64,000 bases of DNA from Methanocaldococcus villosus KIN24-T80 (GTDB taxonomy: Archaea > AGJL01 > Methanococci > Methanococcales > Methanocaldococcaceae), in assembly GCF_000371805.1 (NCBI RefSeq), contig NZ_AQUK01000001.1, forward strand, positions 1,128,268 through 1,192,267, in the 5' to 3' direction. The stretch's first letter is position 1, and every line of letters begins with the position of its first letter. Below are positions 4,904 to 54,800 of the stretch, piece by piece. The notes under the pieces are model-generated. The model did no database searches. It was given only the letters and a program-made list of their open reading frames with translations, and was not told the DNA's origin. The translations under genes and the position numbers were made by a program.

Positions 4904-6068
4904 AAGTTGTATATTCAGCATTTATCTTAACATACTCATAGCTTAAGTCACATCCATAAAATGTTTCATCAACATCTCCAACCTTTAGATCTACAATAAT
5001 TTTTATTTCCTTCCCTTTCATTATATTTTCAGCTTTTTTTAATATATCTCCACTATCTTCACCAATCCCATTTCTCATTAAATATATCTCTTCATTACCA
5101 TTACTTAAAATTAGATCAACATCCTTAAATTCAGCTCCACTATAACCTAATGCTGCTATTATCCTACCCCAGTTTGGATCTCCTCCAAAAAGAGCAGTTT
5201 TTACCAATAAAGAATTTATTATTGCTTTTCCAGCTTTTTTTGCATCTTCTCTACTTTTAGCATTTTTTATTGTTAATTCTAAGAACTTTGTAGCTCCTTC
5301 ACCATCTTTTACAATCATCTTAGCTAATTCCCTACAAACAAATAATAAAGCTTTATAAAAATCTTCTTTACAATTTTTATAATCTACTCCACTTTCACCA
5401 TTAGCTAAAATAAAGACAGTATCATTTGTTGAGGTATCTCCATCCACAGAAATGTTGTTAAAAGTTTTATCTACAATATCTTTCAATAATTTGTCTAAAT
5501 CTTCTTTATCAATTTTTATATCAGTTAGTATAAAGCACAACATAGTAGCCATGTTTGGATTAATCATTCCTGCCCCTTTAGCTATACCACATACTCTAAC
5601 ATCACCAATCTTAACAGCTACATATTTGGGAAATTTATCAGTAGTCATTATACCCTTAGCTGCATTTACAATAGAATTTCCATTCTCTAAAAGTTCTTTA
5701 ACTTTAATCATTCTCTCCTCTAACATGCCAAAATCTAATTTTCTTCCAATAACTCCTGTTGAAGCTATTAAAATATCTTCTTTATTCAAATTAAATAGTT
5801 CAGAAGCTTTTTCTATAATCCTATTGACAGTTTCAAAACCATCTTTTATTAAACATATTGCATTACCACTATTAGCTATTATAGCTTTAAATTCTTTCTT
5901 TTTTTCTAATAGATCTTTTGAATATATAACTGGGTAGGCTTTTACTTTATTTCTTGTAAAAACTCCTGAAGCTATAGCTTTTTTCTCTGATATAATTATA
6001 GAGAAACCATATCCATCTTTATACCCATTAGCTTTAAACCCTTTTGGTAGTTCTTTAATAACTTCCAT
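4902..6068 (-). CDS. argJ: Bifunctional ornithine acetyltransferase / N-acetylglutamate synthase
   Basis: A 388-residue ArgJ, which transfers acetyl from N-acetylornithine to glutamate in arginine biosynthesis and may also use acetyl-CoA. The autocleavage site is visible near residue 175 as KGAGMINPNMATMLCF; the Thr after Ala becomes the nucleophile of the beta chain. Other landmarks are VMASTGVIG-like sequence (IASTGVIGR, about 100), NSISVDGDTSTND (NISVDGDTSTNDT, about 210) and GGDPNWGRI near 297. The site GGATGTGAT lies just before the ATG. Divergent from the nuclease-like gene at 6142 and upstream of the glutamate synthase operon on the same strand, which groups two glutamate-linked functions. 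Confidence 0.96.
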   Translation of the reverse strand: MEVIKELPKGFKANGYKDGYGFSIIISEKKAIASGVFTRNKVKAYPVIYSKDLLEKKKEFKAIIANSGNAICLIKDGFETVNRIIEKASELFNLNKEDILIASTGVIGRKLDFGMLEERMIKVKELLENGNSIVNAAKGIMTTDKFPKYVAVKIGDVRVCGIAKGAGMINPNMATMLCFILTDIKIDKEDLDKLLKDIVDKTFNNISVDGDTSTNDTVFILANGESGVDYKNCKEDFYKALLFVCRELAKMIVKDGEGATKFLELTIKNAKSREDAKKAGKAIINSLLVKTALFGGDPNWGRIIAALGYSGAEFKDVDLILSNGNEEIYLMRNGIGEDSGDILKKAENIMKGKEIKIIVDLKVGDVDETFYGCDLSYEYVKINAEYTT

Positions 6069-6468: not shown

Positions 6469-6898
6469 ATCCTTTCAATTCTATTAATGCTATTTTTTCC
6501 AAAACTCTTTCAACTAAATTTCCAAACCCTCTAATTTTGAAAATATTTCTAATAATCTTTTCTTTCTTTTCATTCAAATCTAAGACACTATCATCAATTT
6601 CTCCACCAATAATATTATAAATTTTATTAAATATTTCTTCATCTTCACAAACTAAACAGACATTTCCATCCTTAGCCCCCATGATTTTTATTGCTTCACT
6701 TATTTGTCTCTGCCCAGAAGCCCTAACAAGAATTTCCATCCAAAAATCTTTTGTTATCATTTTTTTTGTTTTAGCTTGATTTATAGCATGTAAAATATGT
6801 TTTTTAGTAGCTATTTTATCAGCATCTAATATTTGAAACCCTTTTATATTAAAAATATCCTCTTTTATTTTAGCTCCCCTAATCCCTCTAATTATCAT
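6461..6898 (-). CDS. KEOPS complex subunit Cgi121
   Basis: A 145-residue protein matching the Cgi121/TPRKB family. Visible family features are the opening IRGIRGAKI, the central helix with HILHAINQAKTK, and the region ILVRASGQRQISEAIKIMG (about residues 62-80), which is the best conserved part. In the KEOPS complex (Kae1, Bud32, Pcc1, Cgi121), which makes t6A at position 37 of ANN-decoding tRNAs, Cgi121 binds Bud32 and the tRNA 3' end. GTGAT stands just before the ATG. The other KEOPS genes are not in the window. Confidence 0.88.
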   Translation of the reverse strand: MIIRGIRGAKIKEDIFNIKGFQILDADKIATKKHILHAINQAKTKKMITKDFWMEILVRASGQRQISEAIKIMGAKDGNVCLVCEDEEIFNKIYNIIGGEIDDSVLDLNEKKEKIIRNIFKIRGFGNLVERVLEKIALIELKGSK

Positions 6899-6907
6899 AG
6901 AATCACT

Positions 6908-50089: not shown

Positions 50090-51481
50090 ATGATAAAAAT
50101 TAAGAATAAAACTATAGTAAGTTTTTTTATAACAGCAATCCTAGCATCAATGTTAGTTCTTACCCAAACTGCTGCAGTTTCAGTTAGCTTAGTTCCTTCA
50201 ACACAAGAATGTGATGTTGGAGATGTAGTTAATATAGATGCTACTGTAACAATACTCAGTAGTAAAGGGGAATGGGCAAATATAAAAAATATAACCCTCA
50301 AAGTTGAAAAGGATGGAAAAGTTGACACTGTTCCAATTCCATTAACATTAGAACCTGGAAAAACTGTATTATCCAATAAATCCCTATCAAATACAAATAG
50401 TGAAGTAATTGAAGTTAAATTACTAAACACCACTGCAGTTTATGGTTATGGGTATGGTTATAGTTATGTAAATGATAGTAGTTATGGATATCTAAATTGG
50501 CATTATGGTTATGGATATGGTTATGGCTATAGTGGATATGGTTATAATGTTTTAAACTCTCCATCAAATGCTATAATAAAATATAATATAAAATGGAAAC
50601 CTAATGAAGCTGGGACTTACAAGTTTACATTAATTGTTTCTTTGAAAAGTGGGGAAATGTTTGCCTCAAGTTGTGAAGTTACAGTTAAAGGTATAGAAGA
50701 AACAACCACTGGTGGTGGAGGAAAAAGAACAACAACTGGTGAAGAAACTAGTGAAGAGAGAGTAAAAAGCTTATTAGAATCAAAACCAGAAAAATACATT
50801 GTTAAAGAAATAAAAGTTGAACCTGGTAAAAAAGTTGAAATAAGTATAGATAAAGAGATATCAAGTTTAGCAGGATTAGAAAAACTGATTATTGAGCTAA
50901 ATAAAGAAATGAACTTACAAGTTATAGTAGCTATTGTCAAATCATTACCTTCAAAAGTTACAGCTCCTCCATCAGGAACTCCTTACTCAATATTTGAAAT
51001 TGTATTTGTTGACAAAGACACTGGAGAACTTGTAGAACCAAAAGGAGAAGTTGAGTTTAAAGTTCCAAAATCATGGTTAAAAGAGAAAGGATTTGGAAAA
51101 GATGAAGTTGTATTAGAGAGATGGGATGATATTGAAGACAAATGGGAAGACTTACCAACTGAACTAGTAAGTGAGACTGGAGATGGTTACAAATATAAAG
51201 CTAAATTAGAGAGATTCTGTATCTTATCAGTAGTTGCTAAAGCTGCTACAACAACAGAAAAAGAAATAAAAGAGGAGAATAAAACTACAACAACAAAAGA
51301 AATAAAAGAAGAAACAGAAAATAAAACAGAAATAAAAGAGGAGAATAAAACTACAAGTGTTGAAAAACAACCTTCCACAGAAAAACCAGCTAAAGGAGCT
51401 AATAATATGTTAATAATAGCAGTAATATTAGCAATTATAATATTAGTAGCTGCCTATCTAATATTCATGAAAAAACAGTAA
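50090..51481 (+). CDS. Secreted, anchored PGF-pre-PGF-type surface protein with Tyr-Gly repeats
   Basis: A 463-residue exported protein. A signal peptide (SFFITAILASMLVLTQTAAV, about 11-30) leads a beta-sandwich (about 35-115), a Tyr-Gly-rich segment at about 118-157, a second beta segment, and a PGF-pre-PGF-like domain near 270-390 (SLPSKVTAPPSGTPYSIFEI; PKSWLKEKGFGKDEVVLERW). A Lys/Glu/Thr stalk with repeats and a C-terminal anchor helix (NMLIIAVILAIIILVAAYLI) end it. Several N-x-S/T sequons (NIT, NKS, NTT, NDS, three NKT) suit glycosylation by the cluster just upstream. GGGTGTAAGTT precedes the ATG. Surface role inferred. Confidence 0.72.
   Translation: MIKIKNKTIVSFFITAILASMLVLTQTAAVSVSLVPSTQECDVGDVVNIDATVTILSSKGEWANIKNITLKVEKDGKVDTVPIPLTLEPGKTVLSNKSLSNTNSEVIEVKLLNTTAVYGYGYGYSYVNDSSYGYLNWHYGYGYGYGYSGYGYNVLNSPSNAIIKYNIKWKPNEAGTYKFTLIVSLKSGEMFASSCEVTVKGIEETTTGGGGKRTTTGEETSEERVKSLLESKPEKYIVKEIKVEPGKKVEISIDKEISSLAGLEKLIIELNKEMNLQVIVAIVKSLPSKVTAPPSGTPYSIFEIVFVDKDTGELVEPKGEVEFKVPKSWLKEKGFGKDEVVLERWDDIEDKWEDLPTELVSETGDGYKYKAKLERFCILSVVAKAATTTEKEIKEENKTTTTKEIKEETENKTEIKEENKTTSVEKQPSTEKPAKGANNMLIIAVILAIIILVAAYLIFMKKQ
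50443..50553 (+). repeat. Tyr-Gly low-complexity repeat within the surface protein
   Basis: Irregular runs of GGTTATGG-type codons encode YGYGYGYS, SSYGYL, YGYGYGYGYSGYGY and similar blocks over about 37 residues. The repeat is coding and in frame. Confidence 0.85.
51263..51356 (+). repeat. Direct repeat in the stalk of the surface protein
   Basis: An exact 28-base copy occurs at 51263-51290 and 51329-51356, 66 bases apart in the same frame. Each encodes EIKEENKTT with an NKT sequon; the spacer holds a diverged third copy (EIKEETENKT). Confidence 0.85.
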
Positions 51482-51503
51482 AAAATTTTTTATAATATTT
51501 TTT
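51482..51503 (+). terminator. T-tract terminator between convergent genes
   Basis: Thymine runs (TTTTTT, ATATTTTTTG) follow the surface protein stop codon directly and overlap the last codons of the convergent glycosyltransferase gene. Confidence 0.45.
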
Positions 51504-52173
51504 GACAAATCAACTTAATTAATATTTTTATTCCAGTTAAAACATTTGTCCCTTTTTTTATTGAATAATCAGTATATATTGTTTTTATTGGCACTTCTTT
51601 TACCTTTAATTTTAACTGTTTAGCTATAATTATAAACTCTGAAGAAACTTCATATCTATCACTTTTTAACTCTTTTATAATCTTTTTAGCTGCATCATAT
51701 GTAAAACCCCTCAATCCAGACTGACTATCTGAGACATAATATCCTCCCATCAAAAAAGTTAATAGATTTAAAATAAAATTTCCAATTCTCTTAATAATTG
51801 GCATATTTTTTATTTCATTCTTATCTAATAACCTACTACCAATGACAAAATCATTCTCTTTTAAAGCTTCAATTATTTTTTTAATATCTTTAACATCATG
51901 CTGTCCATCAGCATCAAAGGTTATTATATACTTTGGTTTATATAATAAAGCACACTTTATTCCTGTCCCTAATGCCCCTCCTAAACCTCTATTAATCAAA
52001 TGCCTACAAACAATAACACCTTCTCTCTTTGCAAGCTCATAAGTGTTGTCTTCAGAACCATCATCAACAACAATAATATTTTTGTATCCTTCATTTTTTA
52101 AAGCTTTTAATGTTTTAGTTATCATCTTTTCCTCATTGTATGCTGGGACTACAATAAAAACATTATTTTCCAT
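51490..52173 (-). CDS. Glycosyltransferase family 2 (dolichyl-phosphate sugar synthase-like)
   Basis: A 227-residue GT-A enzyme. FIVVPAYNEEKMITKTLKAL near residue 6, VVDDGSEDNTYELAKREGVI near 35, FDADGQHDVKDIKKIIEAL near 85 (the DxD motif as DAD) and SDSQSGLRGFTYDAAKKII near 150 are those of DPM/DPG-type synthases. It lies in a minus-strand operon with small membrane proteins and UPF0216 and is transcribed towards the surface protein gene. The ATG at 52173 follows GGTGGAG; a GTG at 52182 overlaps that site and is not used. It overlaps the MrpF-like gene by 11 bases. Confidence 0.86.
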   Translation of the reverse strand: MENNVFIVVPAYNEEKMITKTLKALKNEGYKNIIVVDDGSEDNTYELAKREGVIVCRHLINRGLGGALGTGIKCALLYKPKYIITFDADGQHDVKDIKKIIEALKENDFVIGSRLLDKNEIKNMPIIKRIGNFILNLLTFLMGGYYVSDSQSGLRGFTYDAAKKIIKELKSDRYEVSSEFIIIAKQLKLKVKEVPIKTIYTDYSIKKGTNVLTGIKILIKLICQKIL

Positions 52174-52426
52174 TATCTCCACCTATGATTTTAGCAAAAG
52201 CTAATGCCCCAACAATCCCAGAAATAAAAAGAGATAAAGCTATAGTATCAGCAAAAGCTATATTGTACTGTTCAGAGATAACTACTATCATTGTTCCTAT
52301 AACAACAGTTATAATAGATTCCCCAATTAAAACATTTGCTGTACCTTTTTTAAATGCTAATCTTAATCCAGCTAAAGCAGAGAAGGTTAATGATATAATA
52401 GCAAATAGCCAAATAAAGTAGTTCAT
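52163..52426 (-). CDS. Small membrane protein, MrpF/EhbB-like
   Basis: An 87-residue protein with three likely helices: FIWLFAIISLTFSALAGLRL, SIITVVIGTMIVVIS and TIALSLFISGIVGALAFAKI. The pattern, with the basic stretch FKKGTANVLIGE between helices one and two, resembles MrpF subunits of antiporters and the matching small subunit of energy-converting hydrogenases. No other subunit is in the window apart from the tiny upstream gene, so this assignment is tentative. It starts on the stop codon of that 55-residue gene (ATGA) and overlaps the glycosyltransferase gene after it. Confidence 0.5.
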   Translation of the reverse strand: MNYFIWLFAIISLTFSALAGLRLAFKKGTANVLIGESIITVVIGTMIVVISEQYNIAFADTIALSLFISGIVGALAFAKIIGGDNGK

Positions 52427-52590
52427 AGTATCACCCTCTTAACAACTAAAAAAATAAATATTAAAGCTCCTAAAAAGATGGAAAACCATACCCATATATT
52501 TACAATAAAAAATATTTTAAATATCTTCTCCCTATTTTTCTTATTATAAAATATTTTCTTTATTGGGTCTTTACCATAATATTTTTTCAT
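52423..52590 (-). CDS. Small single-helix membrane protein (55 residues)
   Basis: An open frame of 55 codons, MKKYYGKDPIKKIF..., with a strongly basic N-terminus and one membrane helix (FFIVNIWVWFSIFLGALIFI) at about residues 27-46. The stop overlaps the next ATG as ATGA, and the start lies four bases after the UPF0216 stop, immediately behind GAGAGG. The tight fit between two genes and the Lys-rich-then-hydrophobic layout make it a real gene rather than chance. No family recognised; perhaps a small subunit of the complex containing the MrpF-like protein. Confidence 0.65.
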   Translation of the reverse strand: MKKYYGKDPIKKIFYNKKNREKIFKIFFIVNIWVWFSIFLGALIFIFLVVKRVIL

Positions 52591-52594
52591 CCTC

Positions 52595-52984
52595 TCAATC
52601 CAAAGGTAATTTAAATATTAGCTGAGTTGCTGTAGGTAATTCTCTCCTAACAATTCTTAATTCTGGCTTATAGATATAAAGAATATTTTCTTCAGAGAAT
52701 ATATTTATCTCTTTTCCTAAGATCTTTGCTACAACTTTAACCTCCTCTTTACCTTTCACAACAATAGCATTTATTGATGGATCTACTTCTAAAACTATAG
52801 GCAGCTTTAAATCTTCACTAGCTATCTCTTTTAATAACTCTAACTCTCTCCTTTTTATTCTATGCCTTTTCCCATTAACTAATATATATGGCCTATCTTC
52901 ATTTAATAACTCTTTTAAACTTTTTTTCTTAAATCTAGGATTTAAGTCTTTAATAACTGATTTTATAATCTTCTCCACTTCCAT
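52595..52984 (-). CDS. UPF0216 family protein
   Basis: A 129-residue protein starting MEVEKIIKSVIKDLNPRFKK; GGTGA lies four bases before this ATG, so the longer frame up to 53017 is not used. It has LLNEDRPYILVNGKRHRIKR near residue 28, RELELLKEIASEDLKLPIVL near 49 and the C-terminal RRELPTATQLIFKLP. I recognise this as UPF0216, which is conserved in archaea and has no known function. It heads an operon with two small membrane proteins and a glycosyltransferase. Confidence 0.8.
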   Translation of the reverse strand: MEVEKIIKSVIKDLNPRFKKKSLKELLNEDRPYILVNGKRHRIKRRELELLKEIASEDLKLPIVLEVDPSINAIVVKGKEEVKVVAKILGKEINIFSEENILYIYKPELRIVRRELPTATQLIFKLPLD

Positions 52985-53042: not shown

Positions 53043-54227
<1,185 letters not shown>

Positions 54228-54231
54228 AAAT

Positions 54232-54402
54232 ATGTGTAGCTGTAATTTATATTTTAAAAATGAGTTAGTTATGGAGGATGTGATTTTTGTAAAGAAAGAG
54301 AATAATAAAATTATAGCCTATGACTTATTTGGTGAAAAAAAAGAGTTTGAAGGGGACATAAAGATTGTTGATTTAAATAATAATAAAATATACATAGAGT
54401 GA
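54232..54402 (+). CDS. CooT-like small protein
   Basis: A 56-residue protein beginning MCSCNLYFKNELVMEDVIFV after GGTGAAAAT; an upstream frame reading into thiolase is spurious. The N-terminal Met-Cys and the layout (LVMEDV, AYDLFGEKKEFEGDIKIVDL) match the CooT / predicted RNA-binding family (PF10133), a small beta-barrel that in bacterial CooT binds nickel through Cys2. Here it sits between thiolase (four-base gap) and DUF35 (five-base gap), an odd place for a nickel chaperone, so its role is open. Confidence 0.66.
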   Translation: MCSCNLYFKNELVMEDVIFVKKENNKIIAYDLFGEKKEFEGDIKIVDLNNNKIYIE

Positions 54403-54407
54403 TAACT

Positions 54408-54800
54408 ATGGTTGTTAGAAGTTGGAGACATATAAAGGAGAGATATAATTTAATAGGAGTTAAATGTTTAAATTGTAACACAGTATATTTCCCAACAAGA
54501 GAGTTATGTCCAAAATGTAGAAGGAAAACAAAGTTTGAAGAAATAAAGCTTAGTGGAAGAGGAAAGGTTTATAGCTATTCTATTATACACACAGCTCCAA
54601 AAGAGTTTGAAAAGGAGGCTCCTTATATAATTGCTATAGTTGAATTAGAAGAGGGGGTAAAGGTAACTGGGCAAATTGTTGACTGTCCTTTAGATAAAAT
54701 TAAAATTGGCTTACCAGTAGAAACTGTTTTTAGAAAAATAAAAGAAGAAGGTGAAGATGGGGTTATAGTTTATGGATATAAATTTAGACCCATAGAATAA
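54408..54800 (+). CDS. DUF35 OB-fold / zinc-ribbon protein
   Basis: A 130-residue protein. The rubredoxin-like zinc site uses C-x2-C (VKCLNCNTVYFP near 20) and C-x2-C (LCPKCRRKTKFEEI near 35), followed by an OB fold (SGRGKVYSYSIIHTAP near 55; PYIIAIVELEEGVKVTGQIV). In archaea the DUF35 protein bridges thiolase and HMG-CoA synthase and lets acetoacetyl-CoA pass between them. The ATG at 54408 has GTGAT four bases upstream; a GTG three codons earlier is not used. Confidence 0.92.
   Translation: MVVRSWRHIKERYNLIGVKCLNCNTVYFPTRELCPKCRRKTKFEEIKLSGRGKVYSYSIIHTAPKEFEKEAPYIIAIVELEEGVKVTGQIVDCPLDKIKIGLPVETVFRKIKEEGEDGVIVYGYKFRPIE

Follow-up and report, generated by a model that had tools for sequence, protein, structure and literature searches.

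Vma21, AtpI and similar proteins are small membrane assembly factors that act on the membrane sector of rotary ATPases. For the archaeal A1AO ATP synthase, the closest described counterpart to the protein studied here is AhaG. In the available portion of PMC4350412, AhaG of the M. mazei A1AO operon is a small hydrophobic protein of 6.3 kDa whose tryptic peptides include exactly two above 900 Da, of which one is very hydrophobic; it was not recovered with the A1AO complex, its participation was questioned, and homologues were described as absent in several archaea. In print, the question of whether the archaeal ATP synthase truly includes AhaG has been left open. The accessible part of PMC3087415 lists ahaG beside ahaD for Methanothermobacter, and the accessible parts of PMC10656485, PMC3149612, PMC1414084 and PMC6131620 hold nothing further on AhaG. 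The genes of the energy-converting hydrogenase Ehb, which also bear on this locus, are split in Methanococci and otherwise make up a conserved cluster (PMC9635834, available in part).

The window, a stretch of 64,000 nucleotides from Methanocaldococcus villosus KIN24-T80, carries the four genes of Table 1, one of which encodes a protein of 55 residues. We propose that this protein most likely represents a known, little-studied family and is encoded at a relocated site, and that it is an AhaG relative that serves the A1AO ATP synthase as an accessory or assembly factor (probability about 0.7). Its placement in the AhaG family is well supported and, on the sequence comparisons described below, highly probable; its function we infer. 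The earlier note on this DNA had read the four genes as encoding a small membrane complex, a reading that overall is partly supported: the small, overlooked membrane protein is real, conserved and codirectional with the UPF0216 and MrpF-like genes.

Table 1. Genes of the cluster, with positions in the window.
Feature	Position	Strand	Size or basis
UPF0216 / DUF61 ORF	52595-52984	minus	129 aa from ATG; Pfam PF01886
55-aa AhaG-family ORF (probable)	52423-52590	minus	conservation, dN/dS, AlphaFold model, homologues at aha genes, profile match
MrpF-like ORF, ehbB by profile	52163-52426	minus	profile A2, hhalign, NCBIfam NF009254
GT2 dolichol/polyprenyl-phosphate-type glycosyltransferase ORF	51490-52182	minus	Pfam PF00535

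The 55-aa gene had been described as fitting exactly between its neighbours with a stop/start overlap. This description stands on the downstream side, where the 55-aa stop and the start of the MrpF-like ORF have ATGA in common, and fails on the upstream side, where a 4-nt gap (GAGG) separates the UPF0216 stop from the 55-aa start. Conservation of the frame between species, proposed earlier as a check, is borne out in 34 of 36 Methanococcales genomes at E 3.2e-21 or better; the two genomes without the frame are 86% (G003) and 54% (G035) complete. Across 30 sequences, codon variation by position is 0.28/0.18/0.50 and the median dN/dS is 0.17 (highest 0.82; 238 unsaturated pairs of 435), a pattern indicating that purifying selection acts on the frame. 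Because the frame is so widely conserved, varies most at third positions and has this low median dN/dS, we take it to be a real gene.

Its product matches no Pfam or NCBIfam family at E<=1, and four relatives of it give no credible family in the same collections, one of them reaching unrelated models at 0.42. The 55-aa profile has no match at E<=1 in a PDB sequence search, the plasmid collection yields none at E<=1e-5, and among the matches listed from openly licensed PMC papers we recognised none on this protein. The AlphaFold model (pLDDT 85) consists of a short helix at residues 9-15 and a long helix at 17-54, the latter predicted to span the membrane behind a basic N-terminus. Y4, G6, D8, P9, W33, W35, G41, I44 and F45 are among the residues that do not vary between 15 Methanococcales sequences. 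An N-in topology is suggested by the excess of K/R before the membrane span over K/R after it in 39/39 family sequences, and the N-terminus is probably in the cytosol. A length of about 50-65 aa, one span and the positive side first are AhaG traits that the 55-aa protein shares.

The association of this family with A1AO genes is seen within the Methanococcales and more broadly outside them. Examined over 10 kb, five Methanococcaceae loci (L103, L104, L107, L109 and L112) have the order ahaA-ahaB-ahaD-DUF22-UPF0216-55aa-ehbB, for which Pfam supplies DUF22 and ahaD and, in L104, the ATP synthase A/B genes. Of the Methanococcales genomes with matches listed for both places, 7/31 have ahaD no more than 2 kb upstream of the 55-aa gene, and the two are within 2 kb on one contig in none of 12 Methanocaldococcaceae, whose draft genomes have them on different contigs. 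The window's own genome has ahaD and DUF22 at a distance of about 358 kb from the 55-aa gene. When profile A1, which contains Methanococcales sequences only, is searched against 149 genomes from a second phylum, 76 give a match at E<=0.1, the lowest value being 6.5e-8. The stronger of these matches mostly cover profile positions 10-53 and lie in ORFs of 50-80 aa. Eighteen match-bearing stretches of at most 10 kb were hand-picked from the 76; ahaA/B/D are present in 16 and were not seen in L136 or in L147, a 5-kb contig.

With the joint profile A5, searched against 394 genomes, 25 matches outside the Methanococcales reach E<=1e-5, a cut-off set after viewing the list, in which most weaker places resemble noise. 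Twenty of the 25 share the strand of ahaD and begin no more than 2 kb downstream of it, three are on the opposite strand at up to 2.6 kb from ahaD, one (G225) directly follows ahaC (PF01992, E 8.9e-64), and one (G209) stands beside UPF0216 only. Encoding in or beside the A1AO genes across genomes, another AhaG trait, is therefore seen in 24/25 outside the Methanococcales as well as in the seven genomes within, among the matches listed. Six of the 25 are A5 rows first found with A1 (G037, G139, G247, G209, G254 and G252); the other 19 are not rows, although many are closely related to rows, and all of them are at aha genes. Weaker A5 places were examined in two genomes: that of G428 (E 1.4e-5) likewise comes after ahaC and ahaI, and that of G242 (E 9e-5; L167 4055-4201, minus strand) is not at recognised aha genes, its flanking ORFs resembling what we take to be Dph2 and Nep1. 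In f7, a family of Thermococcaceae type, one of 61 genomes matches at E<=0.01, with a value of 0.0078 and inside a 140-aa frame. Because f7 seems to lack the family, A1AO enzymes can do without it.

Identification with AhaG itself comes from the genomes of f28, a family that we take to be Methanosarcinaceae. A single-span protein of 55-65 aa directly follows ahaD at 9/9 loci examined there, and a profile search finds a small post-ahaD protein in 69 of 80 genomes with a profile that contains f28 rows. Single f28 proteins match A5 weakly (E 0.0033 to 5.8, and no match for L168). At the level of profiles, A5 and A6, the latter representing post-ahaD proteins of Methanosarcinaceae/Archaeoglobaceae type, align over 56 columns, nearly full length, with a score of 33.6 at 76.5%, which points to homology with the small post-ahaD protein of Methanosarcina-type genomes, as expected of an AhaG relative. 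Of 100 controls in which columns were shuffled with the hydrophobic pattern preserved, none reaches 33.6 (best 13.8), and comparisons with one profile reversed score 6.9 and 9.6. Against the post-ahaD set, the Methanococcales rows alone give 31.5% and the second-phylum rows 78.4%.

All seven loci from Methanosarcina-sized genomes have a small protein after ahaD. Only that of L233 (54 aa, 6.15 kDa) agrees in peptide number with the published account of M. mazei AhaG: just two of its tryptic peptides exceed 900 Da, and one of the two is very hydrophobic. The other six proteins, of 6.16-6.60 kDa, have three or four such peptides. We presumptively equate the post-ahaD protein with AhaG by its position after ahaD and by protein size. 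The small size of AhaG may explain why it was not recovered from the M. mazei complex. The window's gene differs from AhaG in lying far from ahaD, with UPF0216 and ehbB, and its product differs in a more basic N-terminus that carries KKYYGxDP. In a survey of 40 post-ahaD regions hand-chosen for spread, an AhaG-like protein is present in eight (L181-L184, L189, L190, L202 and L203), and one follows ahaD in 13 of 20 further loci chosen partly for having matches; for several of these proteins A5 gave an E-value above 0.1 or no match, and it was their pattern that identified them.

Two observations touch on how such genes are labelled. In G139 (L134), a DUF22-like gene comes after ahaD (6499-6900) and an AhaG-like gene stands further on (5084-5254). 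Because this genome, perhaps a similar one, has a DUF22-like gene in that place, the published Methanothermobacter ahaG label may sit on the wrong gene. In some families where UPF0216 follows ahaD, a longer protein with several hydrophobic stretches comes after UPF0216, at once or slightly further on (L206 382-708, L219 441-731 and L218 967-1347, all three numbered on the reverse complement). The start of this protein resembles the 55-aa family to a varying degree (E 5.1 for L206, no match for L219, 0.013 for L218), and the protein is possibly an extended relative of it.

The upstream neighbour is a clear member of UPF0216/DUF61. It matches PF01886 with E 4.6e-32 (111.2 bits against a gathering cut-off of 27), and the best structural match to its model (pLDDT 83.8) is 5vfk, the solved DUF61 protein SSO0941 (Foldseek E 1e-4, Z 13.8); a PDB sequence search with it gives no match at E<=1. 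A likeness to the N-terminal part of MutS (Z about 5.5) falls far under that to 5vfk and was given no meaning. The clue to a role is linkage to ahaD: UPF0216 is encoded no more than 2 kb downstream of ahaD in 33/89 non-Methanococcales genomes from 12 families, among the matches listed for both places, and the order ahaD-DUF22-UPF0216-small protein is repeated in L177. Among the matches listed from openly licensed PMC papers, we recognised none that links UPF0216 or DUF22 with ATP synthase. DUF22 (PF01629) was itself observed directly after ahaD in the window's genome (G000:C1, about 822 kb, L178) and at other loci, which makes it another protein tied to the ATP synthase.

Profile comparison and genome context identify the downstream neighbour as the Ehb subunit EhbB. 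Profile A2, of Methanococcales MrpF-like proteins, was searched against 247 genomes and matches 46 of them at E<=0.01, of which 35 are Methanococcales and 11 are not. In 6/6 regions examined from these 11 the match sits directly after the gene for EhbA, which is MrpE-like. The remainder of the ehb cluster then follows in L091 and L092, two of the six loci, listed fully or partly. Compared by hhalign, the MrpF-like and post-EhbA proteins agree at 98.7% with E 1.6e-16 and 34% identity over 80 columns. NCBIfam NF009254 matches the window's protein at 46.1 bits, below its 72-bit cut-off, and also matches the L091 protein; a PDB sequence search with the MrpF-like profile returns only two MrpF chains (E 0.24 and 0.31). 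Subunit letters for Ehb follow gene order and are presumptive. In contrast to a post-EhbA gene, the window's ehbB is encoded apart from EhbA (G000:C1:25073) and from EhbN (52% identity, G000:C1:1014361), both outside the window. The idea that the 55-aa protein replaces EhbA was ruled out: EhbA is encoded elsewhere in 34/36 genomes, and the profiles fail to match.

With these identities in hand, the alternatives can be weighed against one another. Because ehbB lies within 600 bp downstream of the 55-aa gene on the same strand in 32/34 Methanococcales genomes, overlapping it in the window, and because it is ehbB that the gene keeps in the three genomes without UPF0216 (G021, G025 and G026), the 55-aa protein could be an additional Ehb subunit, or an assembly factor for Ehb, that is specific to this lineage and acts with EhbB. 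We consider this role improbable. Six non-Methanococcales EhbA-EhbB loci (L096 incomplete), searched for ORFs of at least 25 aa, contain no 55-aa homologue (lowest E 1.4), whereas in other archaea the family is found at aha genes; the remaining two genomes (G002 and G011) have ehbB elsewhere, and EhbA, as a possible target of replacement, is retained as stated above. A second possibility is that UPF0216 has the 55-aa protein as its membrane anchor or partner in some process that does not involve ATP synthase, and that the linkage of the 55-aa family to aha genes reflects hitch-hiking by UPF0216. The two genes are indeed close companions, with UPF0216 within 300 bp upstream on the same strand in 31 of the 34 genomes and the pair standing together away from ahaD in G209. 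The family nevertheless follows ahaD or ahaC with no UPF0216 between them in L161 (where DUF22 intervenes), L163, L164, L165, L166 and the Methanosarcinaceae-type loci, and we give this explanation little credence.

The single membrane complex of all four products, as first suggested for this cluster, is the hardest to sustain, and we regard it as very improbable. The genes are codirectional and tightly packed, and all four occur together in 12/30 loci (flanks of at most 1.5 kb). Gene order in relatives, however, holds for UPF0216 and the MrpF-like gene and breaks down at the glycosyltransferase (GT2; PF00535, E 1.3e-28), for which those 12 loci are the full count; it was not seen in 8/9 Methanococcaceae stretches of about 10 kb, L106 being the one that has it. 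It adjoins ehbB in the Methanocaldococcaceae examined and also in three stretches without the 55-aa gene (L097, L099 and L101). In G002 and G011 the parts have separated, the 55-aa gene keeping UPF0216 and ehbB lying elsewhere with the glycosyltransferase. The cluster is two adjoining modules, UPF0216 with the 55-aa gene and the MrpF-like gene with the glycosyltransferase, and the glycosyltransferase is outside the conserved set and the AhaG module. That the MrpF-like gene is ehbB, together with the company that the 55-aa family keeps with A1AO genes outside the Methanococcales, further argues against one complex.

We therefore return to AhaG and the A1AO ATP synthase, with which the 55-aa family likely works. 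Two forms of this role may be distinguished. An assembly or stability factor is our tentative choice, at a little short of even odds, and a permanent subunit seems unlikely; the former is favoured over a core subunit because the family is absent from one A1AO group and because AhaG was not recovered with the complex in the available portion of PMC4350412. We propose that the AO membrane sector (a/c-ring), or the junction of AO with A1, is assembled or kept stable with help from the 55-aa protein, which would act in a chaperone-like manner or as a sub-stoichiometric accessory factor. Such a protein would resemble Vma21 and AtpI in being a small membrane protein; no sequence relation is claimed. 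UPF0216, and the DUF22 protein encoded beside ahaD, probably assist this enzyme too. The UPF0216-ahaG pair of Methanocaldococcus is found away from ahaD and before ehbB, with which it is probably co-transcribed, and both the pair and ehbB would serve ion-driven energy conservation.

A broader and more speculative proposal, which we hold to be possible but on balance doubtful, is that AhaG, DUF22 and UPF0216 make up a dedicated A1AO biogenesis set, with AhaG a conserved and largely unannotated assembly factor or membrane subunit in many euryarchaeal methanogens and in some Archaeoglobus-like archaea. If so, AhaG would have escaped notice in Methanocaldococcus because its gene is no longer beside the aha genes. 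With the family seen across the Methanococcales, in a second methanogen phylum and in other archaea, the AhaG question becomes testable in Methanococcus, which is genetically tractable, and UPF0216 and DUF22 become candidates for the same pathway.

Two other genes of the window deserve mention. On the plus strand at 50090-51481, a 463-aa protein has tyrosine-glycine repeats of the GYGYGYSY type, a threonine/glutamate-rich stretch and a hydrophobic C-terminus; it has no Pfam match over cut-off and is probably secreted or anchored. At 54232-54402, also on the plus strand, is a 56-aa gene of the CooT family (PF10133, E 4.2e-18), by name an accessory protein of carbon monoxide dehydrogenase; it is closely flanked by a thiolase gene at 53061-54227 and by a gene for a ChsH2-type OB-fold protein at 54399-54800.
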